Of a stretch of DNA of 64,000 bases, positions 1,354 through 17,785 are shown piece by piece. The translations under genes and the position numbers were made by a program. How positions within the stretch are numbered: position 1 is the stretch's first letter; the number at the start of each line of letters is the position of its first letter. The notes below the pieces were generated by a model that saw only the letters and a list, made by a program, of their open reading frames with translations, made no database searches and was not told where the DNA came from. Source of the DNA: Rhizobiaceae bacterium (lineage in GTDB: Bacteria; Pseudomonadota; Alphaproteobacteria; Rhizobiales; Rhizobiaceae); assembly GCA_019635775.1 (NCBI GenBank), contig JAHBYU010000001.1, positions 186,001-250,000 on the forward strand, in the 5' to 3' direction.

Positions 1354-1638
1354 ATGAGCACGATCACGGAAAACACGGTGCTTGCATTCCGGCAAGTCGC
1401 CAGCATGCAACCCGTTGCCGATGGGGCGGTTATCCTGCTTGCCGACAGTGGCCAGCTCTATACGGGCAACGGAACGACCGAGGCGATCCTGCGACATGTC
1501 GACGGGAAACGCCGCATCAGCGATCTGGCGACCGCGCTCTGCTCGGAATTCGACATCGACCCGGAGGCGGCAACCGCCGATGTCATCGAGATTGCCGGAA
1601 CGCTGATCGATGAAGGCGTGCTTGATGTCGTCGGATAG
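1354..1638 (+). CDS. PqqD-like RiPP recognition element protein (lasso B1-like)
   Basis: A 94-residue PqqD-family winged-helix protein. This family (the B1 protein or RRE in lasso pathways) grips the leader peptide and presents the precursor to the processing enzymes. The short beta-rich N-terminus (VADGAVILLADSGQLYTGNG) and the helix-rich second half (ILRHVDGKRRISDLATAL, then a helix ending in EGVLDVVG) match the fold. I chose ATG 1354 rather than the upstream in-frame start because AAGGAG at 1339-1344 is well spaced from it. It precedes the B2 peptidase on the same strand; stand-alone B1 plus B2 is the split-B arrangement of many proteobacterial lasso clusters. Its likely clients are the ten precursor peptides at 3224-5102, whose leaders keep the Y-x-x-P-x-L motif known to be bound by such RREs. 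Confidence 0.85.
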   Translation: MSTITENTVLAFRQVASMQPVADGAVILLADSGQLYTGNGTTEAILRHVDGKRRISDLATALCSEFDIDPEAATADVIEIAGTLIDEGVLDVVG

Positions 1639-1746
1639 GCACGCAGCGACAAAGCGCTTCGGGCTCCTGTGGTGGGATGCGCGCCGTCCATGCGTTCACT
1701 GACGCATTCCGATCATGCGAAGGCCAACAAGGAGGACAGGCCCGCC

Positions 1747-2166
1747 GTGTTGACCCGCCTCCTGTTCCGTGCGGAAGTCTGGCTGCGCGCCAGGCTGCTG
1801 CCGCTCCAGATCAGGGGACGATCGCTGAGAGAGATGCTTGAACTCGCCGAACCGCCTTTGGGAGGGTCGCGTCGCGAAGGCGTATCCGCAGCCTTTGTCG
1901 TGCGGACGGTGCGACGCGTCACGAGGCACCCCTGGGTCATGCGTGACCGGCGCTGCCTGCGCGAGGGCCTCCTGGCTTATCGTCTGCTGGCGGAGACGGG
2001 CCTGCGGCCACGGCTACATTTCGGCGTGGAGCGCGGGGCCGTGACCAGCCCACGTGTGGCCGCCCATTGCTGGGTGACGCTGGACGGTAGAACGATGATC
2101 GGAGAATCGGACGTTCCCTACGTTGAGATCCTGGTGCATCCGGCTGCCGAAGCCTTGCGGGGATGA
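1747..2166 (+). CDS. Lasso-type B2 leader peptidase (transglutaminase-like fold)
   Basis: A protein of the lasso peptide biosynthesis B2 family (Transglut_core3), the cysteine protease that removes the leader from RiPP precursors. The family core is visible: Cys70 in RRCLREGLLAYRLL and His107 in AAHCWVTLDG, with Asp113 or Asp122 as the third catalytic residue. GTG 1747 is preferred because a strong AAGGAGG lies at 1729-1735, although the 11-base spacing is long; ATG 1690 and GTG 1669 are in-frame alternatives that add a poorly conserved, hydrophilic N-terminus. The stop overlaps the kinase start (ATGA), so the two are coupled. The presence of B1 and B2 without a lasso C cyclase is notable and argues against a standard lasso product. 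Confidence 0.85.
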   Translation: MLTRLLFRAEVWLRARLLPLQIRGRSLREMLELAEPPLGGSRREGVSAAFVVRTVRRVTRHPWVMRDRRCLREGLLAYRLLAETGLRPRLHFGVERGAVTSPRVAAHCWVTLDGRTMIGESDVPYVEILVHPAAEALRG

Positions 2167-3146
2167 CATCGGAGCAGCAAGGAAAAGTGGTCCGGCATTT
2201 CGATCTCGGCCCCACGCAACTGACCGTCGAGGCCGAGAACGACGGCCTGCTGGGCGGTTTCGAGCGATTCCTCGGTGAACGGGGCCAGCCGGGCGTCGCA
2301 GCGTCGACGTTCCTGGTATCGATACGGGTGAGCGAGCCCGAACCGGCGCCGGCCGACGCCGAACTGCTTTACAGCGGACCGCTGCCGAAAGAGGGTACTT
2401 GCGACTTCGCGCGCATCGGACAGACCTATTTCATGTCCTTTCCCGAAGAGGCGCGCATGGTCATCGATCCACAAGCCCGTCGGGCGGATATAGTTGTTGC
2501 GCGCGACCGCCCCCAGCGTGCGCGAGGAAGCGTTGTTCCGATCGCGGTCGAGTTCGCGCTGGACCTCGAGGATCAGCAGGTCGTTCACGCAGCAGGCCTG
2601 TCGCTTCCGGCAGAGGGCGGGATGGTGCTCGTTTCAGCCCCCAGCGGCACCGGCAAGACAACCACCGCGCTGGCACTGGCCCGTTCTGGTCTGTCTTTCG
2701 CAGCCGACGACATCATGGTGCTGCGGCGCGAGCCCGGCTCCATCGTCGCATGGGGATTGCCGCGGGCGCTCAATGTGCATCGCAACACCGCAGCGATGCA
2801 GCCCTGGCTGAACCTTCAACCGCAATGGAATGCCGAGGGTGAACAGGCGGTGCCACGGCGAAATCTTGCCTCCGGCGTTCAACTCGAGGACAGGGAACTG
2901 CCGGTGACCCGGCTGGTTCTGCTTCAACGGGGAGAGCGCACCAAGATGGAACCGCTTGCGCCCACGGATATGCTGGCGGCACTGGCGGCCGACAATGTGC
3001 GCAACTCCACATCCGGACTGACGCCGCTGCAGGGACGCCGCTTTGCCATGCTGGCGGATCTCGTCCGCGCGGTGCCTGCCTACAAGGTGACGATGGCTGC
3101 CGGCCTGTCGGACATCGAGGTCATCGCAAGCGAACTCGCCAAATAA
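2163..3146 (+). CDS. HPr kinase-related kinase, RiPP tailoring type
   Basis: A 327-residue protein with an HPrK/PckA-like P-loop domain: SAPSGTGKTT at residues 158-167 and an acidic SFAADDIMVL motif near 180-189. The N-terminal 140 residues are family-specific. Relatives in lasso clusters (ThcoK, PadeK) phosphorylate a serine of the precursor, so the expected reaction is ATP-dependent phosphorylation of Ser/Thr in the peptides encoded next door, whose cores are rich in Ser and Thr. It is the last gene of the pqqD-like/B2/kinase operon and is converged on by the precursor array, which ends 78 bases further on. The alternative is the HprK-related kinase A/B group linked to exosortase and capsule loci. 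The fold is sure; the substrate is inferred from context. Confidence 0.8.
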   Translation: MTSEQQGKVVRHFDLGPTQLTVEAENDGLLGGFERFLGERGQPGVAASTFLVSIRVSEPEPAPADAELLYSGPLPKEGTCDFARIGQTYFMSFPEEARMVIDPQARRADIVVARDRPQRARGSVVPIAVEFALDLEDQQVVHAAGLSLPAEGGMVLVSAPSGTGKTTTALALARSGLSFAADDIMVLRREPGSIVAWGLPRALNVHRNTAAMQPWLNLQPQWNAEGEQAVPRRNLASGVQLEDRELPVTRLVLLQRGERTKMEPLAPTDMLAALAADNVRNSTSGLTPLQGRRFAMLADLVRAVPAYKVTMAAGLSDIEVIASELAK

Positions 3147-3167: not shown

Positions 3168-3199
3168 CAAAAACAAAAAAGGCGCCGTGGGGCGCCTCT
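3168..3199 (-). terminator. Rho-independent terminator ending the precursor array
   Basis: Read on the minus strand: AGGCGCC, loop CCAC, GGCGCCT, then TTTTTGTTTTT. This 7-bp GC-rich stem with a long T tract is placed 26 bases after the stop of the last precursor gene. It gives the array a defined 3' end and shields it from the converging kinase gene. Confidence 0.85.
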
Positions 3200-3223
3200 T
3201 AAATCGGTCGCCTACCGGCCCAA

Positions 3224-3316
3224 TCAGCGGTCCGGGGTCGGGCTACCGTTGGATGCTGTCACCAGAGACAGCTTCTCGCGCTTTCCAAGCGTGGGCTTGT
3301 TGTATGCCTTTTTCAT
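3224..3316 (-). CDS. RiPP precursor A (lasso-type leader)
   Basis: A 30-residue peptide. The leader carries KKAYNKPTLGKREKLSLVTA, with Tyr5, Pro8 and Leu10 forming the Y-x-x-P-x-L motif bound by PqqD-like proteins and Thr at the penultimate leader position, as in lasso precursors. The predicted core after V-T-A is SNGSPTPDR (9 residues), with Asp at core position 8. This is the promoter-distal member, 26 bases before the terminator. Too short to thread as a normal lasso. Confidence 0.85.
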   Translation of the reverse strand: MKKAYNKPTLGKREKLSLVTASNGSPTPDR

Positions 3317-3394
3317 GGCCGCTCTCTCAGCGATCAATCAAACCCTAATTCGCGCCACTGCAGAAAGCTGCCAGCGTGGACTGTGACCATCGCG

Positions 3395-3508
3395 TCACGT
3401 GCCAGATTGCTGCTGGCCATTTATCTCGGTAGTTCCGCTCGTCTGTGCGGTCACCACAGACAGTTTCTCGCGCTTCTCAAGCGTAGGCCTGCTGTATGTC
3501 TTTCTCAT
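3395..3508 (-). CDS. RiPP precursor B (lasso-type leader, longest core)
   Basis: A 37-residue peptide with leader RKTYSRPTLEKREKLSVVTA and predicted core QTSGTTEINGQQQSGT, the longest of the set at 16 residues. Glu is at core position 7. AGGAG lies 5 bases before the ATG. The gene sits 78 bases upstream of precursor A. It is the only core without a proline and the only one rich in glutamine, so it may make a different product from the others. Confidence 0.85.
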   Translation of the reverse strand: MRKTYSRPTLEKREKLSVVTAQTSGTTEINGQQQSGT

Positions 3509-3594
3509 AATAGCTCCTATTTCATAACCAGCAGCCAATCCGATCCAAATCCAACCTGCAGCGATGGCATGTACGGCGGATCAAAAAGAAGATT

Positions 3595-3684
3595 CTACCG
3601 GACCTCAGTTCCAACGTTGATTGCAGTTACCGCCGACAGTTTGTCGCGCTTCTCAAGCGTGGGCTTGCTGTATGTCTTCTTCAC
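3595..3684 (-). CDS. RiPP precursor C (GTG start, shortest core)
   Basis: A 29-residue peptide starting at GTG, with GGGGAG 9 bases upstream. The leader ends KRDKLSAVTA (Asp replaces the usual Glu). The predicted core is INVGTEVR, only 8 residues, with Glu at core position 6 and no Pro. The core departs from the Gly-rich pattern of the other members. Confidence 0.8.
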   Translation of the reverse strand: MKKTYSKPTLEKRDKLSAVTAINVGTEVR

Positions 3685-3762
3685 AGGTTCACACTCCCCT
3701 CAGATATCGCCCGTGCCGAAAAAAGCACAAAACCTGATCCCCGCCAATCGGAATATCGCGCA

Positions 3763-3870
3763 TCAGCCCGCCTTTGGCCCGTCACCCCCTGGCGCACTGC
3801 CACCACCTGCCGCAACCAGCGACAGCTTTTCGCGCCTGGCAAATGTTGGCTTGATGTACGTCTTCTTCAT
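3763..3870 (-). CDS. RiPP precursor D (Gly-rich core)
   Basis: A 35-residue peptide: leader KKTYIKPTFARREKLSLVAA, with Phe in place of Leu in the Y-x-x-P-x-L motif and Ala in place of the penultimate Thr. The predicted core GGGSAPGGDGPKAG has Asp at position 9 and the only mid-core Lys after it. GAGAG lies 5 bases before the ATG. Together with H and J it belongs to the V-A-A subgroup, which may be cut or recognised differently by the B2 peptidase. Confidence 0.82.
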   Translation of the reverse strand: MKKTYIKPTFARREKLSLVAAGGGSAPGGDGPKAG

Positions 3871-3929
3871 GTGCACTCTCAAAGATTACCTGGCACCGAA
3901 ACGTTGCCCATCCCAAAAAGGGACAAAGT

Positions 3930-4035
3930 GCATCCAGCTTTCACATCGCCATCCGATGGCGCACAAAAGCTATCTGCTATGAGCAGCGACAATTTCATGT
4001 TGTCCAATGATAATCCTGCTTTGGCCCTACTTCAA
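3930..4035 (-). pseudogene. Decayed precursor copy (relic)
   Basis: The 222-base gap between precursors D and E is about one repeat unit too long. Within it, AGCGACAATTTC (3985-3996) and CTACTTCAA (ending 4035) line up with the same landmarks of precursor E at almost the same distance (50 versus 52 bases). Read on the minus strand, the start codon has become TTG, codon 3 is TAG and the leader is scrambled. It is the remnant of an eleventh gene. The boundaries are approximate. Confidence 0.5.
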
Positions 4036-4092
4036 GCCAGCCGCGACCCACGTCAAAGACGGGAACATAGCGCCAAAGTGTCAGGAGGCGGG

Positions 4093-4197
4093 TTAACCGC
4101 CTGCCGAAATATCCGGCGCCGTCCCACCTGTTCCCGCCGTAACGAGCGACAACTTCTCACGCTTTTGCAGAATTGGCTTGCTGTATGTCTTCTTCAT
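4093..4197 (-). CDS. RiPP precursor E
   Basis: A 34-residue peptide with leader KKTYSKPILQKREKLSLVTA and predicted core GTGGTAPDISAGG, starting with Gly and carrying Asp at position 8 after Pro7. The Gly1/Asp8 spacing is that of an 8-member lasso macrolactam ring, but only five residues would follow the ring and no cyclase gene is present. It lies 85 bases downstream of precursor F. Confidence 0.85.
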   Translation of the reverse strand: MKKTYSKPILQKREKLSLVTAGTGGTAPDISAGG

Positions 4198-4282
4198 AGC
4201 CACTCAACTCAATCCAGTCTTCATCGATAGATCACGAAAGCCACTCAGCCTCAAAGCAAGCGGAGCCTCACGGCGATTGGAC

Positions 4283-4390
4283 CTAGAAAGGATTCTTCTG
4301 ACCGGTTTCCGGCGCAGATGCACCTCCAGTCGCAGTTACAAGCGACAGCTTCTCGCGTTTCTCAAGCTTGGGCTTGTTGTACTTCTTCAT
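4283..4390 (-). CDS. RiPP precursor F
   Basis: A 35-residue peptide. One leader residue is missing compared with its sisters (KKYNKPKLEKREKLSLVTA), yet Y-x-x-P-x-L is intact. The predicted core is TGGASAPETGQKNPF (15 residues), with Glu at position 8 after Pro7 and a C-terminal aromatic Phe, the only aromatic residue in any core. A bulky C-terminal residue is what a threaded tail would need, but the tail is only seven residues. Confidence 0.83.
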   Translation of the reverse strand: MKKYNKPKLEKREKLSLVTATGGASAPETGQKNPF

Positions 4391-4474
4391 TTCACGACCA
4401 CCCGAAATTCCATACGTGCAACTGATCGCACGAACCCACGCGCCTAAACCAGCGTTGCATCAAGGGTCACTGGA

Positions 4475-4576
4475 CTATTGAGGCCTTATGTCCGGCTCAG
4501 TCCCGCCCGGCCCTGCCGTTACCAAAGACAGTTTCTCACGCTTATCGAGCGTGGGCTTGTTGTAAGCCTTCTTCAT
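4475..4576 (-). CDS. RiPP precursor G
   Basis: A 33-residue peptide: leader KKAYNKPTLDKREKLSLVTA, predicted core GPGGTEPDIRPQ (12 residues) with acidic residues at positions 6 and 8. GGGAG sits 5 bases before the ATG, the best-spaced ribosome site of the array. This is one of the five members with Pro7 followed by an acid at position 8. Confidence 0.85.
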   Translation of the reverse strand: MKKAYNKPTLDKREKLSLVTAGPGGTEPDIRPQ

Positions 4577-4672
4577 GTTCACTCCCATAGGACAAAAACC
4601 TCACCTCGCGAAGCACGGTCTTCGGACACTAGTGGCCCGGCTTCCACGAGGATACTACGAAGGGATACCGTA

Positions 4673-4771
4673 TCAGGTCACAGTCGCAGGCGGCGGGCTG
4701 CCGTTCCCTGCCGCAACCGACGACAATTTCTCGCGCTTGTCGAGCGTTGGCTTGCTGTATGTCTTCTTCAT
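4673..4771 (-). CDS. RiPP precursor H (near-twin of J)
   Basis: A 32-residue peptide with leader KKTYSKPTLDKREKLSSVAA and predicted core GNGSPPPATVT, which has no acidic residue at all, so no side-chain macrolactam is possible. It differs from the core of precursor J only in its last residue. The gene begins ATG-ATG; the second ATG (4771) has the better spacing from GGGAG. The DNA identity to J extends past the stop codon, which shows a recent duplication. Confidence 0.85.
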   Translation of the reverse strand: MKKTYSKPTLDKREKLSSVAAGNGSPPPATVT

Positions 4772-4836
4772 CATCACTCCCAATGCAAAAAAATTAATCC
4801 CGTAACGAAAAGCCCGGATACGAAGCGCAAGACGCT

Positions 4837-4938
4837 TCAGCCCGGGTCGATTTCCGGCGGCGTTCCGTTGCCGTTCGCGGTCACAACCGAAAGTTTATCC
4901 CGCTTCTGAATGGTAGGCTTGATGTATGCCTTTTTCAC
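4837..4938 (-). CDS. RiPP precursor I (GTG start)
   Basis: A 33-residue peptide starting at GTG 4938, with GAGG 6 bases upstream; an in-frame ATG four codons further upstream (4950) overlaps that ribosome site and is less likely. Leader KKAYIKPTIQKRDKLSVVTA has Ile in place of the motif Leu. The predicted core NGNGTPPEIDPG is 12 residues, with Glu at position 8 after Pro7. It separates the near-identical copies H and J. Confidence 0.82.
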   Translation of the reverse strand: MKKAYIKPTIQKRDKLSVVTANGNGTPPEIDPG

Positions 4939-5003
4939 AGCGAACCTCATCAAATCATCTCAGATGGTGGCCGGCTTCGAAAGATACTACGCGGTATGCC
5001 GCG

Positions 5004-5102
5004 TCAGGGCACAGTCGCAGGCGGCGGGCTGCCGTTGCCTGCCGCAACCGACGACAATTTCTCACGCCTTTCGAGCGTGGGCTTGCTATATGCCTTCTTC
5101 AC
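5004..5102 (-). CDS. RiPP precursor J (promoter-proximal, near-twin of H)
   Basis: A 32-residue peptide starting at GTG 5102, with GCGAGG 6 bases upstream. Leader KKAYSKPTLERREKLSSVAA, predicted core GNGSPPPATVP with no acidic residue. It is the first gene of the array, read away from the divergent ligase operon. Apart from the last residue its core is the same as that of H. Confidence 0.85.
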   Translation of the reverse strand: MKKAYSKPTLERREKLSSVAAGNGSPPPATVP

Positions 5103-5137
5103 CGCCAACCTCGCCAATCCGATGATACAACCTCTTG

Positions 5138-5256: not shown

Positions 5257-6663
5257 ATGCTTCTCTCTCTTCTTGATAGCCGGTCCAGACTCGTCGACGC
5301 GCGCAGTGGCGCAGAGCTGGATATGGACGCTTTCGCAGGCCGTGTGGCGATGCGTTCCGGAGAGTTGTCGGGGGCAGGAATCGGCCGGGGACAATGTGCG
5401 GTCATTGCCCAGCGCGCGCCGCTCGACTATCTGCGCGATCTCCTTGCGCTCTGGGAGGTTGGCGCCATGGCAATCGCGGTAAATCCGGCCATTACGCAGG
5501 AAGAACGCGACAATGTAATGAGGGCGACTCGCGCTGTGGCGCTGCTTGATGAGGCTCCGCTCGTTGCTCATGCCGGAGCGGTGCCCGAATCGGCCCGACT
5601 TGGACCGGATTCGCCCGCTTTGACGCTGATGACCTCGGGCACCACTGGCCGGCCGAAAGGCATCGTCCACACGCAGCGCAGCCTCGCTGCGCGGCTGGCG
5701 CTCAACGTCGGAGCGATCGGCAGAACAGATCTTGAGCGATCACTTTGTGTGTTGCCGTTGCATTTTGGTCACGGTCTGATCGGCAATATTCTTACGGTGC
5801 TGGCCGCCGGAGGCACCCTCTATCTGTGGCCGCAACCGTCGATCGACGAAATGCGCGGCTTCGGATCGCTGGTTGATTCGCAGCGCATTAGCTTCATGAG
5901 TTCGACGCCTGCGTTCTGGAACGTGGCCATGCGATTGTCGCAGCGCCCAACCCACGCCATGCAGAGGGTCCATATCGGTTCAGCCCCCCTTTCCATCGAA
6001 CACTGGCGGGCCGTTGCCGAGTGGACGGGGACGCGCCGTGTGTTCAACATGTACGGCATGACGGAGACGGCGAACTGGATCGGCGGCGCGTGCCTCGACG
6101 ACGACGGTGCGGCGGACGGCGCGGTCGGCTTTCCATGGGGCGGAACGGCAGCGCTTCTGGGTGACGATGGCAAACTCAAGCGGGAAGGTTCGGGCGAGGT
6201 GCTTATCTCGACGCCATCGATGATGACGGGTTATCTCGACATGGAGGCGGAAACCAAGGCAGCCTTCCACGGGGCATGGCTGCGCACCGGCGACATCGGC
6301 CGGCTCGACGCCGAAGGGCGGCTGACCCTTGTTGGTCGCATCAAGCACGAGATCAACCGCGGCGGGGTAAAGGTGCCGGCCGAGGAGATCGACATGCTGC
6401 TCGAGCGCCACCCCGCCATCAGCGAGGCATGCGCATTCGGGTTGCCTGACCCGGCCGCCGGCGAGGTCGTGGCCGCGGCAATCGTGCTGTCGGGCAAGGA
6501 GGCTGACATTCCGGCGATCCGCGCCTGGTGCCGCGAGCGGTGCCGGGCAGAAGCCGTTCCGTCCCGTCTTTTCGTGCTGGAGGCCATTCCACGCAACGAC
6601 CGCGGCAAGGTGGTGCGCGACCGCGTACGCGAGGCCGCGTTGGCCTCCGGGCCGGGAGCCTGA
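5257..6663 (+). CDS. Acyl-AMP ligase (ANL superfamily, AMP-binding)
   Basis: A 468-residue class I adenylate-forming enzyme. Visible motifs are the AMP-binding loop TLMTSGTTGRPKG (123-135), YGMTETAN near 267, the hinge/aspartate motif TGDIGRLDAEGRL near 344 and the C-terminal lysine in NDRGKVVRD near 450. It is expected to activate a carboxylic acid as acyl-AMP and, given the carrier protein two genes on, to load it on that phosphopantetheine arm. It heads a + strand operon (ligase, GNAT, ACP, nucleotidyltransferase) divergent from the precursor array. The acid is unknown. It lacks the length of a CoA-dependent acetate-type ligase and could also act on an amino acid or aryl acid. The family is sure and the link to the peptides is inferred. 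Confidence 0.85.
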   Translation: MLLSLLDSRSRLVDARSGAELDMDAFAGRVAMRSGELSGAGIGRGQCAVIAQRAPLDYLRDLLALWEVGAMAIAVNPAITQEERDNVMRATRAVALLDEAPLVAHAGAVPESARLGPDSPALTLMTSGTTGRPKGIVHTQRSLAARLALNVGAIGRTDLERSLCVLPLHFGHGLIGNILTVLAAGGTLYLWPQPSIDEMRGFGSLVDSQRISFMSSTPAFWNVAMRLSQRPTHAMQRVHIGSAPLSIEHWRAVAEWTGTRRVFNMYGMTETANWIGGACLDDDGAADGAVGFPWGGTAALLGDDGKLKREGSGEVLISTPSMMTGYLDMEAETKAAFHGAWLRTGDIGRLDAEGRLTLVGRIKHEINRGGVKVPAEEIDMLLERHPAISEACAFGLPDPAAGEVVAAAIVLSGKEADIPAIRAWCRERCRAEAVPSRLFVLEAIPRNDRGKVVRDRVREAALASGPGA

Positions 6664-6668
6664 CCCGC

Positions 6669-7235
6669 ATGGCAAAGTCCGGGTTGGGGGCGCCGATCGA
6701 AAGCGAACGTTTCCGTCTCGTTCCGCTCAGCCGCTGGGGGGCTTTCAAGCTGACCTACCGCTGGACGAAAGACAGCGCGTTCATGTCCAGCTATTGCGGC
6801 TCCGGCGAGCCGCGTTCGCCCTGGAAATGGTATCGCGAGATGATCCGACCGAACAATCGGACCAAGTTTGTCCACGCCATCGTGCCGCACGGACAGACCG
6901 AACCGATCGGGGTCCATACGGTAGCGATCAAGCCTTACAAATCGTGTCTGCTGGCCGTCGGCATTCACGACCGGAACTGGTGGGGCAAAGGTGTCGTCCA
7001 GGAGGTGCGGACGCGCGCCATCGAGCACGTGTTCGAGCATTCCGATGTTGAAAGGCTTTATGCGCAGGTGGTGGCGCGGAATTTCCCCTCGATCTTCAAC
7101 TACCGCAAGCTCGGCTTCGCCCATGTCGGAACACTCCATCGCTGCCGGATCGACAAGGCCAACGGGCAGGTACAGGACATGCTGATCTTCGAAATGTTTC
7201 GCGAGCAATGGATGGCGAGGGACGCCAATGCGTGA
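6669..7235 (+). CDS. GNAT family N-acyltransferase
   Basis: A 188-residue GNAT of the RimJ/RimL group. The CoA/pantetheine-binding turn is NWWGKGVVQEV near residues 103-113, and the C-terminal segment NFPSIFNYRKLGFAHVG is the usual GNAT beta5-alpha4 region. I chose ATG 6669, five bases after the ligase stop; the open frame continues upstream inside the ligase without a better start. It sits between an acyl-AMP ligase and an acyl carrier protein, and its 3' end overlaps the ACP gene by 8 bases. That suggests it takes an acyl group from the carrier (or from acyl-CoA) to an amine, possibly the core N-terminus or a Lys of the precursor peptides. RiPP-acylating GNATs are known (selidamide maturases). 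A plain N-acetyltransferase role remains possible. Confidence 0.8.
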   Translation: MAKSGLGAPIESERFRLVPLSRWGAFKLTYRWTKDSAFMSSYCGSGEPRSPWKWYREMIRPNNRTKFVHAIVPHGQTEPIGVHTVAIKPYKSCLLAVGIHDRNWWGKGVVQEVRTRAIEHVFEHSDVERLYAQVVARNFPSIFNYRKLGFAHVGTLHRCRIDKANGQVQDMLIFEMFREQWMARDANA

Positions 7236-7479
7236 GGACGAACTCGGCGCTGTCTTGGGTATCATCGCCAACGTGCTGGGCTGCCGGGTCGAGGAGGTGA
7301 CCGCTGATGTGCGCGTCGGCTCCCTGCCGCAATGGGACAGCATCAACCACATGTCCATTATCCTTGCCTTCGAGCAGCACCTGGCACGGCAACTGACCTC
7401 GGAGGAGATCGGCTCGCTTGAAACCGTCGCCAGCTTCGCAGCACTGCTCGCCAGGCAGCGCGACAAGGCCGAGACATGA
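7228..7479 (+). CDS. Acyl carrier protein
   Basis: An 83-residue acidic four-helix protein with the phosphopantetheine site WDSINHM (Ser38), where Ile replaces the common Leu. It overlaps the GNAT gene by 8 bases and the nucleotidyltransferase gene by 4 bases (ATGA), so the four genes are co-translated. A dedicated carrier beside an acyl-AMP ligase and an acyltransferase indicates a private acyl donor route separate from fatty acid synthesis. No phosphopantetheinyl transferase is present in the window; the housekeeping enzyme would have to serve. Confidence 0.88.
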   Translation: MREDELGAVLGIIANVLGCRVEEVTADVRVGSLPQWDSINHMSIILAFEQHLARQLTSEEIGSLETVASFAALLARQRDKAET

Positions 7480-8465
7480 CCACAGGCACGTGTTTGGCGA
7501 AGCGCCGGGGTGCGACACCGGTGACGCAGGGAGCGAGGTTGGCCAACCTGGCCGATCCGCAGGCACCGGCGCCCGCAACGCCGGTGGCGGATCGCGAAGC
7601 GCTTCTGGAGCTGGCTCGGCCGCATGGCGTGGAGAACATCCTCTGGCGGAAATTCGGGGCCGACATAGACGCGCCGGGCGGCGCGAGTACGCTGCATCGC
7701 ATCGGGCAGGCGATGCTGCTTGACGGGCTCCGGCGGGAACTTTCAGCCGCCCTCGCGGCGGAAGGTGTGGCCGCCCATGTCGTCAAGGGGCCTGTCTTTG
7801 CCGAGAAGCTCTATGCGGTGCGCGGCGACCGCCTGTTCAGCGACATCGACCTGCTTGTCGATGTCGGGGCCATCGAAGACGCAATCCGGGTGATAGAGGG
7901 ACTTGGCTATGTTCGCCCGAGCAAGAGCTGGGACAATTCCCAGCGTGACATGGAATACAAGTTCGGTCATCCGCGTCATCCGACGGCGCTGATCGAGCTT
8001 CACGGCAACCTGGTCCACTATCCGCAGTTGCGAAGACGCGCGACCTTCGGCCTGCCCGAATTGCTGGCTGCCGGGGATGGCGACGGCGAGGCCCCGACGG
8101 CGCTGCTCGCCACGGCCATCGTGCACGGCACGCTTGGGCACAAGCTCGACCGGCTGGTGATGCTGGTCGATGTACTTCAGGCCGTGCGCAATCTCCCTCG
8201 CGAGGATTTCGACCGCGCCGTCACAGCCCTGACGGCGTTGCGGCTGGATCTCGAATGCGCGGTCTGCCTTTCGGTCGTGGCACGGCTTTTCCGCGATGAT
8301 GCAGTGGCGGAACTCGCGGAGCGGTTTCCTGCGGGGCCTTCCGTCCGGCTGGGCAAAATGCTCGTTTCGCCCGAAGCGGTCGTATATGCGCAGGCAGAGG
8401 GTGCAGGGAGGGGATCGTGGGCCCGACGAAAGACATTCCGCCTCTTGCAGTGCCTGCCGCAGTAG
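7476..8465 (+). CDS. Nucleotidyltransferase family protein (NTP_transf_5)
   Basis: A 329-residue member of the PF14907-type nucleotidyltransferases. The catalytic features are HVVKGPVFAEKLY near 101-113 and SDIDLLVD at 122-129, the D-x-D pair that binds metal, followed by LIELHGNLVHYP. Homologues occur in lasso clusters that also carry HPrK-like kinases (the paeninodin type), where they are thought to act on the phosphorylated peptide. It is the last gene of the divergent operon, overlapping the ACP gene by 4 bases. The first 35 residues look unstructured, so the true start could be later. The family is sure; the substrate is not known. Confidence 0.82.
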   Translation: MTTGTCLAKRRGATPVTQGARLANLADPQAPAPATPVADREALLELARPHGVENILWRKFGADIDAPGGASTLHRIGQAMLLDGLRRELSAALAAEGVAAHVVKGPVFAEKLYAVRGDRLFSDIDLLVDVGAIEDAIRVIEGLGYVRPSKSWDNSQRDMEYKFGHPRHPTALIELHGNLVHYPQLRRRATFGLPELLAAGDGDGEAPTALLATAIVHGTLGHKLDRLVMLVDVLQAVRNLPREDFDRAVTALTALRLDLECAVCLSVVARLFRDDAVAELAERFPAGPSVRLGKMLVSPEAVVYAQAEGAGRGSWARRKTFRLLQCLPQ

Positions 8466-8490: not shown

Positions 8491-9375
8491 TCAGTGTGCC
8501 GGCGCAGTCTCGGGATTTCGGTAGCCGAGGCACATCACCAGCGTCTGACAAAGCACCATCGCAGGCACCTGGCTGCGGAAGTGGCCGAGCCGGCCTTCCT
8601 TGACATAGAGCGCATGGCTGGCGAGCGGCGCGACAGGGCTGAGTTCATTGTCGGTAATGGCGAGAACGGTGCGGCCGGAAGCATGTGCCTTGCGGGCGAG
8701 GTCGACCGTCTCGGGCGTGTAGTCGTCGAAGGTGATGACGAGCAGGACGTCATCCTGATCCATTGCCGCGAGCTGCTCGGCGCGCATGGCGCCGAGATTG
8801 TCGACAAGGAAGGCGCGCTTGCCGATCCTCGACAGGCCGTAATAGGTGTAGCTGCCGACGCCGAAGGCGCCGCGCGCGGCCGCGATATGAACCGCCTTGG
8901 CGCTCTGGAGGGCATCCACGAACGGGACAAGGTCGGCCTTGGCGACGTCTTCCCTCAGGCGCAGCAGCGCATCGAAAGCGGCCTGGATGAAGGTGTCGGC
9001 GACCTGATGGGGGTCGTTCGGTCGGCTTCCTTTCGCTGGGGGCGACAGTTCGCGGTTCACCGCCTGAATCCGGTCGGCATAGGACATGCGCGGCCCGAGC
9101 AGGCGTTGCTTGAACATGGCCTGAAGAGCAGCGAAGCCGTCGAAGCCGAGTTCCTTGGCGAAGCGCGTGATCGCGGAAGGAGGCACGCCGGCGCGCCTGG
9201 CGATCTCGATGATGGTGAAGATCGCGGCGTCTTCCGGATTGTTGAGCAGGTATTGGGCGACCTGCTGCAGCCGTCGACTGAGCGACGACTGGCGCGTCAG
9301 GAGCGTCTCGACGAACTCGCCATAGTCACGCGTGCTGTCCGTCTCGTCGCTCAAGCCGCTCCCCCTCGCTTTCAT
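8491..9375 (-). CDS. MurR/RpiR family transcriptional regulator
   Basis: A 294-residue regulator with an N-terminal RpiR helix-turn-helix (IIEIARRAGVPPSAITRFAKEL near 55-76) and a C-terminal SIS sugar-phosphate-binding domain (roughly 130-270). Such proteins control sugar catabolic genes in response to a phosphosugar. It is the last gene of a minus-strand operon. Its ATG follows directly on the stop of the dehydrogenase gene with no gap, so translation is probably coupled and the operon is probably self-regulated. It converges on the RiPP nucleotidyltransferase with 25 bases between. Confidence 0.9.
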   Translation of the reverse strand: MKARGSGLSDETDSTRDYGEFVETLLTRQSSLSRRLQQVAQYLLNNPEDAAIFTIIEIARRAGVPPSAITRFAKELGFDGFAALQAMFKQRLLGPRMSYADRIQAVNRELSPPAKGSRPNDPHQVADTFIQAAFDALLRLREDVAKADLVPFVDALQSAKAVHIAAARGAFGVGSYTYYGLSRIGKRAFLVDNLGAMRAEQLAAMDQDDVLLVITFDDYTPETVDLARKAHASGRTVLAITDNELSPVAPLASHALYVKEGRLGHFRSQVPAMVLCQTLVMCLGYRNPETAPAH

Positions 9376-11657: not shown

Positions 11658-11786
11658 GATCGTGCAACTCGATTTCCAAATGATTGAAAAATAGAAAAAT
11701 TGTTCCGATCGGTCAAGTCGGGCAGCGGCGGATTGACAGGTTTGCCTCGACTGCCGATCAATGTGCGAGGGGGAGGCGGCTTTCGA

Positions 11787-14024
11787 ATGCGGTTGTTTCA
11801 ATCGGCAGGATCGATCGGCGTTGCGTTGGCCCGTCTTGCTGGGCTCGCGCTTCTCCTTCTGCTGCTTGGCCTGCGTATCGCCGATCCGCTGCTTGTCTCT
11901 TCAATTCGGAACCAGGGTTTCGATATCCTGCAGCGGCTCCATCCCAGGCCGGAAGTCAAGCAGCCCATCGTTATCGTCGACATCGACGAAAAGAGCCTCG
12001 AACAGGTCGGGCAATGGCCGTGGCCTCGCTCCGAGGTCGGCCGCCTGGTCGACAGCCTGACACGCATGGGGGCGGTGGTCGTCGGCTTCGACATCGTGTT
12101 TGCGGAGCCGGATCGCCTCTCGCCCGATCGGATCGCGGAGGACAATCCCGATCTGCCTGAACAGGCGAGGGCCGATCTGCTCAACCTTCCCTCCAACGAG
12201 GTGGTCCTGGCCGACGCGATCCGCCGTTCGCGCGTGGTGGTTGGCGAGACAAGCATACGCGTCGACGACGAGACGCTGGCGGGCGGCGACCAGCCCATTG
12301 TCGACGTACCTCACGCCATACTCGGGCGAGACCCGGCGCCCTTCCTGCTGAAATTCCCCAGGCTGGTGCAGAACCTGCCGGTTCTCTCGGAAGCGGCGGC
12401 GGGCCACGGCCTGTTCACGGTCGAGCCCGACCCGGACGGGATTTTCCGCCGCGTGCCGCTCGTCATGATGGTGCAGGACCACCTGCGCCTCGGCCTTTCG
12501 GCGGAAATGCTGCGTATCGCAACCGGCGGACAGGCGGTCGCCATACGCAGCAACGAGGCGGGGATCGAGGGGATCGTGGTTGGCGGCGTCTTTGTGCCGA
12601 CGGATGGCAGCGGCCGCGTATGGCCCTGGTTCAACGGCTCGTCGCGCGAGCGCTACGTGTCGGCCGCCAGCGTGATGTCCGGCGAGGCGGCTCCCGAAAA
12701 GATCGCCGGCCATCTCGTGGTCGTCGGCACGTCGGCTGTCGGGCTCGAGGATTTTCGCGCAACGCCTGTCGCCAACTTCATGCCGGGCGTGGAGATCCAC
12801 GCGCAGATCGTGGAGAACATTCTCACGCAGCAATTCCTCCACAGACCGGCCTATGCCATCGGGATGGAACTGGTGCTGACGCTCGTTGTCGGGCTTTTCG
12901 TGATCTGGCTGGTGCCGAAGGTTGGCGCCTTCTACTCCTTCTTCGCGGCGGTGTCGGTGCTGGGGCTCGTCGCCACAGGCGTGGTCTGGGCGTTCTACTC
13001 GCAGCGCATGCTGATGGATGCGACCTTCCCAGGCGGCGCGCTTGCGGCCGTGTTCATGCTGATGGCAACCTCGAACTACATGCGCGAGGAGCGGCAGAAG
13101 CGGCAAATCCGGAGCGCGTTCGGGCAATATCTTTCACCGGCTCTCGTCGACAGGCTGGCCGACCATCCCGAGCAGCTCGTGCTGGGCGGCGAAACGCGCG
13201 AACTTACGCTACTGTTCACCGACGTTCGCGGCTTCACCACCATTTCGGAAAGCTTCAAGTCCAATCCGCAGGGACTGACGCGGCTGATGAACCAGTTCCT
13301 CACCGCGCTGTCAAAGGCGATTCTCGACCGGGACGGAACGATAGACAAATATATGGGCGACGCGATCATGGCGTTCTGGAACGCGCCGGTCGATCTGCCG
13401 GACCATGCGATGCGCGCCTGTCGCGCGGCGCTCGACATGGTGAAGCAGGCCGAGGCCGTCAACGCCGCGCGGCGAGCGGATGTCGCCTCAAATCCAGGCG
13501 AGGCCATGCACGAGATCAAGATCGGCGTCGGCATCAATACGGGTCAGTGCGTGGTCGGCAACATGGGCAGCGACATGCGCTTCGACTACACCGCGCTTGG
13601 CGACACGGTGAACCTAGCGTCCCGGCTGGAAGGCCAGTCGAAAGCCTACGGCCTGACGATCATCCTCGGCGACAATACCGCAGCGACGGTTGCCGATACG
13701 CTTGCCGTGCTCGAGATCGACCTGATCAGGGTCAAGGGCAAGAACGAGCCGGAACGCATCCACACATTGCTGGGCGTCGAGGAGCTTGCCGGCAGCGAAG
13801 CGTTCAAGGCGCTCCAATCAGCCAACCGCACCATGCTGGAAGACTACAGGGCACAGCGATGGGACAAGGCAGCCGAGGGTGTCGGCCGGATGCGCGGTCT
13901 GGCAGAACGTTGCGGCCTGAGTCTTGAAGGCTATCTGGCGCTCTATGAGGGCCGTTTGGATTTCTTCCGGGACAATCCGCCGGAAGAAGGCTGGGACGGC
14001 GTCTACGTGGCCGTTTCAAAGTAG
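11787..14024 (+). CDS. CHASE2-domain adenylate/guanylate cyclase (class III)
   Basis: A 745-residue membrane enzyme. It has an N-terminal transmembrane segment (about 10-30), an extracytoplasmic CHASE2 sensor (about 40-350), a cluster of membrane segments (about 360-430) and a C-terminal class III cyclase domain. The cyclase domain keeps the metal-binding FTDVRGFT and GDAIMAFWNAP motifs and the turnover motif region GDTVNLASRLEG. It makes cAMP (or cGMP) in response to an external signal. I chose ATG 11787, after GGGGGAGG, rather than the TTG at 11700. It precedes the TolC/T1SS/adhesin genes on the same strand by 129 bases and may set their expression. A second CHASE2 cyclase lies at 55863-57776. 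Confidence 0.92.
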   Translation: MRLFQSAGSIGVALARLAGLALLLLLLGLRIADPLLVSSIRNQGFDILQRLHPRPEVKQPIVIVDIDEKSLEQVGQWPWPRSEVGRLVDSLTRMGAVVVGFDIVFAEPDRLSPDRIAEDNPDLPEQARADLLNLPSNEVVLADAIRRSRVVVGETSIRVDDETLAGGDQPIVDVPHAILGRDPAPFLLKFPRLVQNLPVLSEAAAGHGLFTVEPDPDGIFRRVPLVMMVQDHLRLGLSAEMLRIATGGQAVAIRSNEAGIEGIVVGGVFVPTDGSGRVWPWFNGSSRERYVSAASVMSGEAAPEKIAGHLVVVGTSAVGLEDFRATPVANFMPGVEIHAQIVENILTQQFLHRPAYAIGMELVLTLVVGLFVIWLVPKVGAFYSFFAAVSVLGLVATGVVWAFYSQRMLMDATFPGGALAAVFMLMATSNYMREERQKRQIRSAFGQYLSPALVDRLADHPEQLVLGGETRELTLLFTDVRGFTTISESFKSNPQGLTRLMNQFLTALSKAILDRDGTIDKYMGDAIMAFWNAPVDLPDHAMRACRAALDMVKQAEAVNAARRADVASNPGEAMHEIKIGVGINTGQCVVGNMGSDMRFDYTALGDTVNLASRLEGQSKAYGLTIILGDNTAATVADTLAVLEIDLIRVKGKNEPERIHTLLGVEELAGSEAFKALQSANRTMLEDYRAQRWDKAAEGVGRMRGLAERCGLSLEGYLALYEGRLDFFRDNPPEEGWDGVYVAVSK

Positions 14025-14153
14025 CTTGCAGCGCTGCGCAAAACCATTCTGTGAAAAGGTGGAAAACGGCGGTTTTTTGCAGAGCAGCATGGATACTGTC
14101 CTTGTCGTGCAAAAAGGTATATATTGCTCCTCCTGTGTAGGGGACGCGTGCGT

Positions 14154-15542
14154 ATGGTGGGGTTGCGCATCGGAGTGATTTCGGCTGCCATTCTATTGGC
14201 CGGAACGACGATTCAGGCGCAAGCCACGTCCCTTAAGGAGGCCGTACAGCAGGCCGTCCTGACCAATCCCAGGATCGATGCCGCCCAAGCCAACCGCCGC
14301 GCCACCGAATACACGTTCAAGCAGGCGAAGGGCCGGTTCCTGCCCGAGGTCGAGGTCAATGCGGACGCAGGCCAGCAGCGGATCGATCGGCCGCAGGGCA
14401 TAGCGCCAGACAACAATGACCAGTGGATGGACCGGCGGCAGGCGACTGTCAGCATCAGGCAGGTGCTGTTCGACGGCTGGGACCGCGCCAACGACATCTA
14501 CCGCACACAGGCCGGCATTTCGGCGGCGTCCTTTCGCGTTCTGGTCCGTTCCGAGGCGGTGGGCCTGAACAGCATCGAAGCCTATATCGATGTCGTCCGG
14601 CACAACGAGTTGCTGGGGTTGGCCCAGGAAAACCTGAGGCGTCACCAGACGCTTCTGCGCATCGTGCAGGAACGATATGACGGTGGACGCTCCCCGATAG
14701 GCGATCTCCAGCAGACGATCGAGCGCGTCGAGGCGGCGAAGGCCCTGGTTGCGCAGATCACCGTCGCTCGCGAGACGGCAAATGCGAAGTACAAGAACGC
14801 CGTCGGCGTGCCGCCGATCAAGTTGCAGCCGGTCAAATATGCTGTCGGAATTCCCAAGGCGATAGGGGAAGTCACGGATCGCGCCGTGCGCAACAATCCA
14901 CGCGTCAAGGAAGCGCTCGCCGAGACCCAGGTGTCCTACTACGACAAGCAACAGTTCCGCTCGACGCTCTATCCGCAGGTTTATCTGGAGGGGAATGCCA
15001 CGCGCGGCGAGGACCTCGACGGTACGCCCGGACGCAACGATGAAGTCGGCGGACGCGTGGTCCTGCGCTGGAAGCTGTTCGACGGCGGCGTGCGGCGTAA
15101 CCGTGAAGCCGAGCTTGGAGAACGCTACTCCGAAAAGGTCGCCGAGCAGATGATCCTGATCCGCCAGATCACCGAGGAGTCGGAGGTGGCGTGGGCACGT
15201 CTGGTGGACGGTCGCGCGCAGGTTGACGCCGTCAGGACCGAGGTTGCCCAGAACAAGAAGGTGGTGGCGTCCTACAAGGACGAGTACGACGCCAATCGCC
15301 GCAGCCTGCTGGACCTGCTCGACGCCGAGAATTCGCTTTTCGCCAGCCAGTTCGAGCTGTCCAACGTCATCGCGCTGCACAAGTTCTCCAGCTATGAACT
15401 GCTCGCGCTGATGGGCATTCTGCTCAAGACGCTCGGCGTCGACGGACAGCATGTTCCCGACGTTCCCGCCAATCCGCTTCCGACGCTCATGCGCGGCCCG
15501 GCGCAGAAACCCTTCGAAATTCCTTCGCTGACAAGCGAGTGA
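14154..15542 (+). CDS. TolC family outer-membrane protein of a type I secretion system
   Basis: A 462-residue TolC-like protein with a signal peptide (MVGLRIGVISAAILLAGTT, cleaved near AQA) and two outer-membrane efflux-protein repeats of long coiled helices. It forms the trimeric outer-membrane duct. ATG 14154 follows AGGGGA with good spacing; the upstream TTG at 14124 is less likely. It is followed after 50 bases by the ABC component and then the HlyD adaptor, making a complete type I machine for the adhesin at 19238. Confidence 0.92.
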   Translation: MVGLRIGVISAAILLAGTTIQAQATSLKEAVQQAVLTNPRIDAAQANRRATEYTFKQAKGRFLPEVEVNADAGQQRIDRPQGIAPDNNDQWMDRRQATVSIRQVLFDGWDRANDIYRTQAGISAASFRVLVRSEAVGLNSIEAYIDVVRHNELLGLAQENLRRHQTLLRIVQERYDGGRSPIGDLQQTIERVEAAKALVAQITVARETANAKYKNAVGVPPIKLQPVKYAVGIPKAIGEVTDRAVRNNPRVKEALAETQVSYYDKQQFRSTLYPQVYLEGNATRGEDLDGTPGRNDEVGGRVVLRWKLFDGGVRRNREAELGERYSEKVAEQMILIRQITEESEVAWARLVDGRAQVDAVRTEVAQNKKVVASYKDEYDANRRSLLDLLDAENSLFASQFELSNVIALHKFSSYELLALMGILLKTLGVDGQHVPDVPANPLPTLMRGPAQKPFEIPSLTSE

Positions 15543-15592
15543 AGCGGTTTTGTGATATCCCTCTGTGCCGCGCGCATGCGACAGGATGACGA

Positions 15593-17785
15593 GTGGAACA
15601 GAGGCACGCATCATTCAGCGAAAGCATCGGCCCCGAGGCGGATCTCCATGCGGCGCATGATCCGCTGATCGGCGCGCTCGAATATCTGGCTATCCATCAT
15701 GGAAAACCCTTTTCGCGATCCGCCGTGCTGCAAGGCTTGCCGCTGACCGGCAGGAGCCTGACGCTCGACCTTTTCGGACGGGCCGCCGAACGGCTGGGCT
15801 TCGAGAGCAGGATACTGAACCGCCGCCCGTCTGACGTGTCAGGTCTCGTGTGCCCCTTCGTGGTGCCGCTCAAGAGCGGCGACGTGGCGATTGTCCTTGA
15901 AAAACGCCACCGGGGACGCAAGGCCCTGGTCGTCGTTCCGGGTGGCGATCCCAAACGGATGCGCCTGTCCGATCTCGACCGCGAAGCACTCGATACGGTG
16001 ATCTATGTCGCCGACCGCAAGCAACAGGATGCCGTCGCCTCAAGCTCTGCGATGACGCGGCGCATGAGAGGGCACTGGCTGTGGTCGGTCGTGTTCCGGC
16101 TCTGGCCGACCTGGCTTTACGTCATCCTCGCCGCGCTTGTGATCAACCTGCTCGGCCTGGCGCTTCCGCTGTTCGTCATGAACGTCTACGACCGGGTGAT
16201 CCCGAACAACTCCGTGCCGACGCTTTGGGCGCTGGCGTCCGGTGTCGTGATCGCGCTTGGCGCGGACTTCCTGCTGCGCATGCTGCGGGCCGGCGTCATC
16301 GAAAGCTCGGGCAGGCGAGTGGACATGCGGGTCTCGTCGGTGCTGTTCGAGCAGGCGCTCGACGCATCGATGGCCAGCCGGTCGACGCGCGCGGGCGAAT
16401 TCGCCAATCACATCCGCGAGTTCGAAGGGGTGCGCGACTTCTTCACGTCGTCGAGCATCGTCTCTGTGATCGACCTGCTTTTTATCGGCGTGTTTCTGGG
16501 CCTTCTCTACGTTATCGTTGGCGAGCTCGCGCTGGTGCCGCTGTTCGCAGTGCCACTGGTCCTCGTCGTCACGCTGCTTATTCAGATTCCTCTGGCGCGA
16601 TCGGTAAACGCCGCCCAGCTCACCAAGACCAACCGGCACACGATTCTCGTGGAGTCTATGGTCGGCGTCGAAACCATCAAGGCGGTTACCGGCGAAGGCG
16701 TCATGCAGAAGAAGTGGGAGGATGCGGTCGCAGGCTCCGTGCGCGCCAGTTCGTCGCTGCGCTTCTGGTCTTCGCTCGCCATGTATTTCAGCCTGCTGGT
16801 GCAGCAGGGCGTGAGCGTCATCCTCATCGTCTGGGGCGTCTATCTGGTCGCGGCGGGAAATATCACGATCGGCGCGCTGATCGCCTCCAACATACTGGCT
16901 GGACGCGTGCTCGCGCCGCTGAGCGGCATCGCCATGACACTGGCGCGTGCGCAGACCTCCTTTTCGGCGCTGAGGCAGCTCAACCTGATGATGAAGCTCG
17001 ACCGCGACCACAAGATGCCGCCGGCTGGAGGCGGGCGGATCGACCAGGGGAGGCTGGAACTGCGCGATGTCGACTTCTCCTATCCGGGTCAGCCAAGGAA
17101 GGCCCTCGACGGCCTGTCGTTGCGGATTTCGCCTGGCGAGCGGGTCGGTGTCATCGGGCGCGTGGCGTCTGGCAAGTCCACTCTCGGCAAATTGCTTTGC
17201 GGGCTTTACGAGCCTGCCGCCGGCGCGGTCATCGTCGACGGCACCGACATCCGCCATTGCTGGATGGCCGATCTGCGCAGGGCTGTCGCCTATGTGGGAC
17301 AGGAGCCCGAGTTGTTCGCCGGCACGCTGAAGGAAAACATCCTGTTTGGCTGGCGCGAGGACGAGAGGGCGTTCGAGGAAGCCGCGCGCGCGTCAGGCAT
17401 AGCTGTATTGGCGCAGTCACAGCCGCTTGGCTACGCGCTGCCGGTCGGCGAGCGGGGCCGCGCCATTTCCGGCGGGCAGAGGCAGGCCGCCGTCATCGCG
17501 CGCGCCATTCTGGCCAATCCGCGCGTCCTCTTTCTGGATGAACCGACCAGCGCGATGGACAACCTGACCGAGGCCGCCTTCATCCGGGGGTTTCGCGCAT
17601 GGCTGAAACCGGACACAACGCTCGTGCTCGCGACACATCGGGTGTCGATGCTCGAGCTGGTGGATCGCCTGATCGTCCTCGAGAACGGCCGCGTGGTGGC
17701 GGACGGACCGAAGGACAGGGTCCTGGCGTCGCTCCAGAAGCGCAGCGTGCTGGCATCCGAAGAACAGGATGGCGGCGATGGCTGA
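15593..17785 (+). CDS. Type I secretion system permease/ATPase
   Basis: A 730-residue ABC exporter of the HlyB/LapB kind. Residues about 25-130 form a C39-peptidase-like domain without the catalytic Cys, so it is a binding module rather than a protease. The membrane domain spans about 150-430, and the ATPase has Walker A GRVASGKST (near 522), signature ISGGQRQAAVIARA (near 626) and Walker B RVLFLDEPTSAMD. The start is GTG 15593; nearby ATGs are out of frame. Its end overlaps the HlyD gene by 17 bases. Its expected cargo is the RTX adhesin downstream. A degenerate C39 domain is the rule in RTX exporters and argues against a role in RiPP leader removal. Confidence 0.93.
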   Translation: MEQRHASFSESIGPEADLHAAHDPLIGALEYLAIHHGKPFSRSAVLQGLPLTGRSLTLDLFGRAAERLGFESRILNRRPSDVSGLVCPFVVPLKSGDVAIVLEKRHRGRKALVVVPGGDPKRMRLSDLDREALDTVIYVADRKQQDAVASSSAMTRRMRGHWLWSVVFRLWPTWLYVILAALVINLLGLALPLFVMNVYDRVIPNNSVPTLWALASGVVIALGADFLLRMLRAGVIESSGRRVDMRVSSVLFEQALDASMASRSTRAGEFANHIREFEGVRDFFTSSSIVSVIDLLFIGVFLGLLYVIVGELALVPLFAVPLVLVVTLLIQIPLARSVNAAQLTKTNRHTILVESMVGVETIKAVTGEGVMQKKWEDAVAGSVRASSSLRFWSSLAMYFSLLVQQGVSVILIVWGVYLVAAGNITIGALIASNILAGRVLAPLSGIAMTLARAQTSFSALRQLNLMMKLDRDHKMPPAGGGRIDQGRLELRDVDFSYPGQPRKALDGLSLRISPGERVGVIGRVASGKSTLGKLLCGLYEPAAGAVIVDGTDIRHCWMADLRRAVAYVGQEPELFAGTLKENILFGWREDERAFEEAARASGIAVLAQSQPLGYALPVGERGRAISGGQRQAAVIARAILANPRVLFLDEPTSAMDNLTEAAFIRGFRAWLKPDTTLVLATHRVSMLELVDRLIVLENGRVVADGPKDRVLASLQKRSVLASEEQDGGDG

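Follow-up and report, generated by a model that had tools for sequence, protein, structure and literature searches.

A tandem array of ten genes with lasso-type leaders in a Rhizobiaceae bacterium points to a little-explored, cyclase-free peptide family

Ten tandem genes for short peptides with a lasso-type leader lie at positions 3224-5102 of a 64,000-nucleotide (nt) stretch of DNA from a Rhizobiaceae bacterium (assembly GCA_019635775.1, contig JAHBYU010000001.1, positions 186,001 to 250,000, forward strand; hereafter the window, to which coordinates refer), and they raise the question of what kind of product they give. An initial annotation had taken them for lasso-leader precursors of ribosomally synthesized and post-translationally modified peptides (RiPPs), and this lasso reading of the array was half right. 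We consider it likely that the array is a RiPP precursor library for a cyclase-free, kinase-centred pathway giving linear phosphorylated peptides, where both the phosphorylation and the linearity of the products are predicted. Rather than knotted lasso peptides, the results suggest a bacterial peptide family that has been little explored.

All ten minus-strand genes of 29-37 codons claimed by the initial annotation were present as intact open reading frames (ORFs), each with its own stop codon, running head-to-tail from 5102 to 3224. In array order they encode 32, 33, 32, 33, 35, 34, 35, 29, 37 and 30 amino acids (aa). Seven of the ten start with ATG and three with GTG, and the bases upstream were judged by eye to be purine-rich. 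Precursor 1 (5004..5102, GTG start) has the core GNGSPPPATVP, which is nearly copied by that of precursor 3 (4673..4771, GNGSPPPATVT), and between them lies precursor 2 (4837..4938, GTG start, core NGNGTPPEIDPG). These are followed by precursor 4 (4475..4576, GPGGTEPDIRPQ), precursor 5 (4283..4390, TGGASAPETGQKNPF), precursor 6 (4093..4197, GTGGTAPDISAGG), precursor 7 (3763..3870, GGGSAPGGDGPKAG), precursor 8 (3595..3684, GTG start, INVGTEVR), precursor 9 (3395..3508, QTSGTTEINGQQQSGT) and precursor 10 (3224..3316, SNGSPTPDR), all on the minus strand. Adjacent genes are separated by 65-96 nt, apart from a single gap of 222 nt with a probable decayed eleventh copy (about 3975..4022, minus strand, KAGLSLDNMKLSLLIA), recognised by eye, whose upstream leader part is lost.

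The leader alignment (n = 10) has invariant columns at M1, K3, Y5, P8, R13, K15, L16, S17, V19 and A21, and K7 is nearly invariant; position 10 is Leu in most sequences of profile A1, which was built from the ten window precursors. The consensus reads YSKPTLxKREKLSLVTA. The leader is near-constant as first described, with the correction that it ends in VTA in seven precursors and in VAA in three; cleavage is assumed there, and cores of 8-16 aa follow. At the DNA level, eight copies of a 90-nt repeat showed 60-74% identity to the reference copy. In the 17 leader codons, pairwise comparison gave 108, 111 and 350 differences at codon positions 1, 2 and 3, and the proportion of synonymous differences (pS) was 0.59 vs 0.14 for non-synonymous ones (pN). 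Since the differences are mainly synonymous, the frames are kept by selection at the protein level, and the repeats are coding rather than chance repeats. The annotation had named a lack of synonymous bias in related genomes as a refuting result; the bias was found here, although among paralogues and not orthologues. That the ten ORFs score with the profile follows from its construction and proves nothing alone. After precursor 10, an intrinsic-terminator-like hairpin by consensus match (3177..3200, minus strand; 10 pairs, loop 4, T-rich tail) was detected. Terminator-like sites in the region numbered nine vs 2.4 expected, and promoter-like sites were not above chance (2 found vs 1.2 expected). 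The GC content of the array (3224-5105) is 54.5% vs 64.5% in the kinase gene, 65.0% in the ligase gene and 62.7% in the window.

The cores had been called hypervariable. They are divergent, but each of the ten keeps a Ser or Thr at position 4 or 5, counted from the residue after VTA, VAA or IAA (10/10; shuffled mean 3.5). The same was found in 63 of 82 cores overall (shuffled mean 32.3), in 45 of 60 non-redundant cores (23.7) and in 38 of the 53 non-redundant cores outside the window (21.6), and in each core set the count was reached by none of 5000 shuffles. Precursor matches under 14 bits were dropped before counting, and the statistics leave out further precursor matches from the cluster reading and three divergent precursors of genome G077. 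Within the window, five cores carry Ser and the other five Thr at this place; the residue follows Gly in nine and Ala in one, and Pro occurs within two residues after it in 8 of 10. Several cores at loci L039, L043, L046, L050 and L051 have Cys flanking Ser (IACPISQCGD, GCVGSDCK, APCPVSGPCGPQ), suggesting a possible disulfide loop around the target residue in these relatives; the window cores contain no Cys. Two more precursors on contig C11 of the window's own genome (L034:8282-8407 and 8653-8766) have the Pro/Ser-rich cores GSIGSGPPSPPSAPPSPQAPG and QSIGSAPPSPPSPPSVP.

Family matches bore out the YxxPxL leader beside a PqqD-like protein, a lasso-type B2 peptidase and a kinase. The PqqD-like RiPP recognition element (RRE, B1-like; 1354..1638, plus strand) scored 44.9 bits with PF05402 (cut-off 23.4); lasso PqqD models scored below cut-off, and PqqD and TfuB1 were among its weak solved relatives. 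The B2-like leader peptidase (1669..2166, plus strand) matched NF033537 with 58.4 bits (cut-off 33) and PF13471 with 50.8 bits, and its residues Cys96 and His133 do not vary among 12 sequences that include the window's. The third gene (2163..3146, plus strand) encodes an HprK/PEPCK-fold kinase. HprK and PEPCK have a common fold. The HprK matches of the window protein remained below cut-off (Pfam 18.9 bits vs 33.3), a profile of 12 kinase sequences found HPr kinases in the PDB with E about 0.002, and the structure model (pLDDT 91) matched PEP carboxykinases with E down to 2.4e-9. The residues His142, Gly164, Lys165, Asp182 and Asp183, invariant in 12 sequences with the window's included, fit the His-Lys-Asp-Asp set described for lasso kinases (PMC9266682). 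LppK phosphorylates core Ser3 and does not accept Thr (PMC13381572), and BsfK phosphorylates core Ser3 and accepts Thr (PMC10368454). By analogy, the HprK-like kinase could act at the conserved Ser/Thr of position 4-5.

Beyond the array, the plus strand encodes an NTP_transf_5 nucleotidyltransferase-fold enzyme (7476..8465; PF14907, 69.8 bits, cut-off 31.2), PsmN/LppN-like by context, for whose model no PDB structure matched at E<=0.001 (best 1.4e-3; FKRP 0.045). It is preceded by three possible accessory genes on the same strand, which encode an AMP-forming acyl/aminoacyl ligase and candidate tailoring enzyme (5257..6663; PF00501, PF13193), a GNAT-family transferase (6669..7235; PF13302) and a small carrier protein like acyl carrier protein (ACP) (7228..7479; PF00550, 22.2 bits, cut-off 20.8). 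The whole window cluster was found in the same order in G043, a genome of another family, at 53-71% identity (ligase 70% at the same position, GNAT 71%, carrier protein 55%), with a weakly scoring precursor-like ORF (16.5 bits) on the opposite strand between kinase and ligase. Genome G160 has ligase (54%), GNAT (34%) and nucleotidyltransferase homologues together with five tandem precursors.

The distribution of the system was analyzed in a sample of 397 genomes of the order (Rhizobiales/Hyphomicrobiales). The profile search proposed by the annotation, run with A1, detected relatives in 16 of the 397 genomes (E<=0.01), of which 14 encode a B2, and the two misses were weak matches (E 0.004 and 0.0085). 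A second profile, A2, was built from 49 sequences, partly from 12 of the 16 genomes later positive, with at most 20 candidates scored per genome, and gave 20 positive genomes at E 0.01 and 16 at 1e-3; the four at E 0.004-0.0095, which lack B2, were left out of the 16 genomes and 110 precursors counted below. B2 exceeded its cut-off in 26 of 397 genomes. Precursors (A2, E<=1e-3) were present in 16 of the 19 genomes that have a B2 without a neighbouring cyclase, in none of the seven whose only B2 is cyclase-adjacent, and in none of the 371 without a B2 above cut-off; the placement covered cyclases of E 1e-10 or stronger in one of two listings. The co-occurrence has a Fisher p of 7e-26, and 2e-4 within B2-positive genomes, with genomes treated as independent and kinship ignored. 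The three genomes with a non-cyclase B2 and no A2 precursors are G077, G230 and G335. G077 holds a four-gene set with three divergent tandem precursors missed by the profile (L155:2452-3692, MKKPYVPPMVTPTVRL...), whose cores hold VPVSG or IPVSG; the B2s of G230 and G335 and the second B2 of G077 are distant ones.

Precursors and B2 occur in three of four genomes of the window's own genus, and the fourth, G336, has neither. In genus g3 (Mesorhizobium), five of the eight listed genomes hold precursors, and all five have two B2s, one cyclase-adjacent and one not. The window's genome contains four further precursor relatives outside the array. Across the 16 genomes, 28 of 110 precursors (E<=1e-3) lie within 6 kb of a cyclase-free B2 and 82 do not. 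G383, of the genus of the Kaistia record, has 15 precursors in 10 places and one B2, and in G132, G160, G282 and G334 all counted precursors lie beside the enzymes, like the window's ten. Because 82 of 110 precursors lie away from the enzymes, the enzymes probably act in trans on dispersed precursors, as judged by co-occurrence. One enzyme set for a peptide library, proposed in the initial annotation, is supported by co-occurrence and precursor placement across the surveyed genomes. Adenine deaminase, glutathione S-transferase, a LacI-type regulator, patatin and DNA ligase were considered as shared partners of stand-alone arrays and rejected, as they look like chance or same-genus synteny.

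RRE, B2, kinase and nucleotidyltransferase genes lie together at 17 of the 22 B2 places without adjacent cyclase that were read, and the kinase is present at 18 of the 22. The exceptions are G398, G397 and the distant B2s of G077 (second), G230 and G335. In a tree of 33 B2s, 18 cyclase-free sequences split from 12 cyclase-adjacent ones with support 100/99, and the three distant B2s fell on the cyclase-adjacent side, with a program warning of long branches. Searches that started from the kinase were also made. A single-sequence scan of a named genome collection gave no match, and the profile scan gave 11 loci, two of them unrelated weak kinase matches. The other nine, from Mesorhizobium, Kaistia or unclassified Rhizobiales/Hyphomicrobiales, have all four genes; they were left out of the 22 places because they were picked by their kinase. 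A class-wide kinase-profile survey of 385 genomes recovered the window's own genome and a single weak match; it sampled the order sparsely and hence says little on the order. Plasmid searches with kinase and ligase gave no match. No account of this Rhizobiales system was found by title or abstract in the openly licensed PMC literature.

A formyltransferase-like gene adjoins the arrays or sits inside the enzyme cluster in 5 of 82 sequences compared, the window not being one of them. Four match PF00551 (L044:8422-9372, L052:6443-7453, L132:8341-9351 and L136:7775-8710) and one is a 36% homologue (L116:9989-10945). N-formylation of the peptide or of a sugar would be a possible role.

The pathway that we propose for the array would proceed as follows, in an order of steps that we infer. 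The PqqD-like RRE would bind the common Y-x-K-P-T-L leader, as expected from work on lasso peptides and linear polyphosphorylated peptides (LPP). Assisted by the RRE, the HprK-like kinase would put one or more phosphates on the Ser/Thr of position 4-5, and the NTP_transf_5 enzyme might add a sugar or nucleotide to the phosphate, by analogy with PsmN and hexose. The B2 Cys protease is predicted to cleave after VTA/VAA, releasing a linear peptide of 8-16 residues. The ligase-ACP-GNAT trio, which G043 shares and of which G160 has ligase and GNAT, might add an acyl group. All precursors, dispersed ones included, would be served by one enzyme set, as their co-occurrence suggests.

Several points weigh against this proposal. 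The pathway is predicted here from genes, and LppN showed no activity in the LPP study (PMC13381572). The kinase scores below curated Pfam and NCBIfam cut-offs, and the 50 matches listed for its model are all PEPCK, with TM about 0.5, and include no HprK. In five of the ten window cores, the candidate residue is a Thr at position 5 instead of a Ser; 19 of 82 cores have no Ser/Thr at positions 4-5, and 1 of 82 has none at 2-6. No nucleotidyltransferase was found in the 15 kb read of G398, and no match to RRE, kinase or nucleotidyltransferase in the 15 kb of G397, although that genome holds a B2 and two precursors. The scan of the seven neighbouring proteins revealed no exporter. The survey is limited by an A2 partly built from positives, by related genomes, by at most 20 candidates per genome and by weaker cyclases being unlisted.

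Among other explanations, the peptides might be true lasso precursors, with threading done by a non-canonical enzyme or by a cyclase whose gene lies elsewhere. Two lasso features are present, namely the YxxPxL-type leader with a discrete RRE (Y5 and P8 invariant, PqqD-like protein by sequence match) and the B2 leader peptidase of lasso type. If cleavage occurs at the assumed site, the seven VTA leaders carry Thr at position -2, where lasso leaders have Thr (or Ile/Val), and the three VAA leaders carry Ala. Moreover, Asp/Glu occupies position 7-9 in 7 of the 10 window cores, four of which also carry a small residue at position 1, so that a ring-forming core with threading tail is partly represented in these four. 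However, the macrolactam cyclase (protein C) was not found near the array or elsewhere in the window's genome, where the sole full PF00733 (Asn-synthetase-family) protein is an N-acetylglutaminylglutamine amidotransferase (1002 bits) and the three further matches are weak. In the whole family, Asp/Glu at 7-9 occurs in 17 of 82 cores and both features together in 7, and stand-alone cores have a median length of 10 aa (range 6-21). The B2 group of the array is set apart in the tree from cyclase-adjacent B2s, and the five Mesorhizobium-genus genomes hold a second, cyclase-adjacent B2, the four precursors read there being quite different. As the cyclase and core tests fail, the system was not filed as lasso; a lasso product was rejected as the principal explanation, and we regard it as quite improbable.

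It is also conceivable, though unlikely, that cleavage of the precursors is followed mainly by acylation, formylation or glycosylation while the kinase has another substrate, which would give lipo- or glycopeptides without phosphate. This would agree with the accessory trio in the window and G043 and its ligase and GNAT in G160, with an AMP-binding enzyme, more distantly related, next to the array in L048 and with the formyltransferase-like gene adjoining the system in five loci. However, GNAT matches occurred in two other loci and ACP in one, vs 18 of 22 places with a kinase; a kinase would need just such a conserved Ser/Thr, and Lys is present in 15 of 80 stand-alone cores. An inactive array, formed by decaying or selfish duplications with no role in maturation, would account for the probable decayed copy and for own-genus G336 without precursors and B2. 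The ten intact frames with synonymous-biased change, the conserved core Ser/Thr and the co-occurrence with enzymes in several families of the order make it very improbable.

Tentatively, and at somewhat below an even chance, the RRE-B2-kinase-nucleotidyltransferase set may represent a separate RiPP class of the order that modifies up to 15 precursors per genome in trans, some fused to S74 domains, and yields lineage-specific linear phospho- or phosphoglycopeptides; the Ser/Thr would then sit in a fast-changing core of 6-21 residues, and S74-fused cores would be cut from both sides. Four precursors fused to a C-terminal Peptidase_S74 (endosialidase chaperone) domain were detected, in G000, G397 and G161 (two), and they make up four of the five S74 matches in 12 genomes searched. 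They are encoded at L033:7893-8213 (own genome, C9:45129), L140:4797-5129, L081:5360-5704 and L149 (G161 C167:1862-2086), and each has a lasso-like leader, a short core and an SDIRLK motif. S74 domains cut themselves off just before the SDIRLK motif. The stretch from leader to SDIRLK measures 7-14 aa, with Ser at 4-6, and is within the stand-alone core range. At L133 (G397 C46:78256) a B2 of the cyclase-free group was found, and one of the two precursor matches of that genome is S74-fused.

Farther along the window, adenylate-cyclase-like, outer-membrane-efflux-like and ABC-type proteins lie in a row at 11700-17785, as read by eye from translations. They may form a type I secretion set, and nothing connecting them with the array was noticed. 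An ORF of ABC type by eye lies about 7 kb from the cluster with other ORFs between, and no MsbA-like exporter was recognised in the scan of the seven neighbours.

If the cyclase-free phosphopeptide pathway holds, the principle of kinase-modified RiPPs would reach beyond Bacillota into a phylum that uses another leader peptidase, and clusters of one to three peptides would give way to a library served in trans. The system would offer a natural test of how a single set of RRE, kinase and protease copes with widely differing cores that keep one target residue, and, in Mesorhizobium, where a cyclase-bearing cluster coexists, of how cross-talk between two RRE pathways is avoided. The leader is a simple search handle, therefore many short genes in these bacteria become predictable.

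LPP were reported from Bacillota only (Popov et al. 2026; PMC13381572). They resemble the window system in the discrete RRE, HprK-like kinase and NTP transferase, in having no macrolactam cyclase (here by homology), in the Y-x-x-P leader and variable core with Ser near its start, and in coexisting with lasso (cyclase-bearing) clusters in some genomes. However, the LPP leader is cut by an archaeal-type signal peptidase I, whereas a B2 is present here; no signal peptidase turned up in the scan of the seven neighbours, which did not extend to the remainder of the genome. The leader motif is YxxPxVLxHQxIxFETxxS in LPP, and each LPP cluster has 1-3 precursors of 35-200 aa, compared with ten of 29-37 aa here and many dispersed relatives. 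Because the leader peptidase and motif differ and LPP are placed in Bacillota only, the system was not filed as LPP.

Phosphorylated lasso clusters (paeninodin and pseudomycoidin, PMC9266682; Bsf, PMC10368454) share the RRE, the B2 and the HprK-like kinase with His-Lys-Asp-Asp. The pseudomycoidin and Bsf clusters also have a nucleotidyltransferase, PsmK/PsmN giving phosphate and hexose, and BsfK acts on core Ser3 and accepts Thr. These clusters differ in that they make lassos with a cyclase, and paeninodin-type kinases use a C-terminal Ser. The cyclase-bearing clusters of the Mesorhizobium genus (G136, G209, G069, G229 and G105; L082, L163-L166) have an RRE, a B2 and distant kinase and NTP_transf_5 homologues, with a YETPSL leader in the four precursors read. 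They differ in the adjacent cyclase and, in these four, in long cores with Asp near position 9 and a C-terminal Ser; the four-protein profiles score 17-39 bits there vs 98-365 at cyclase-free loci outside profile building. The best reading from these sequence comparisons is that the window system would be a proteobacterial counterpart of LPP, in which B2 replaces the signal-peptidase-like enzyme and the precursor library is larger.

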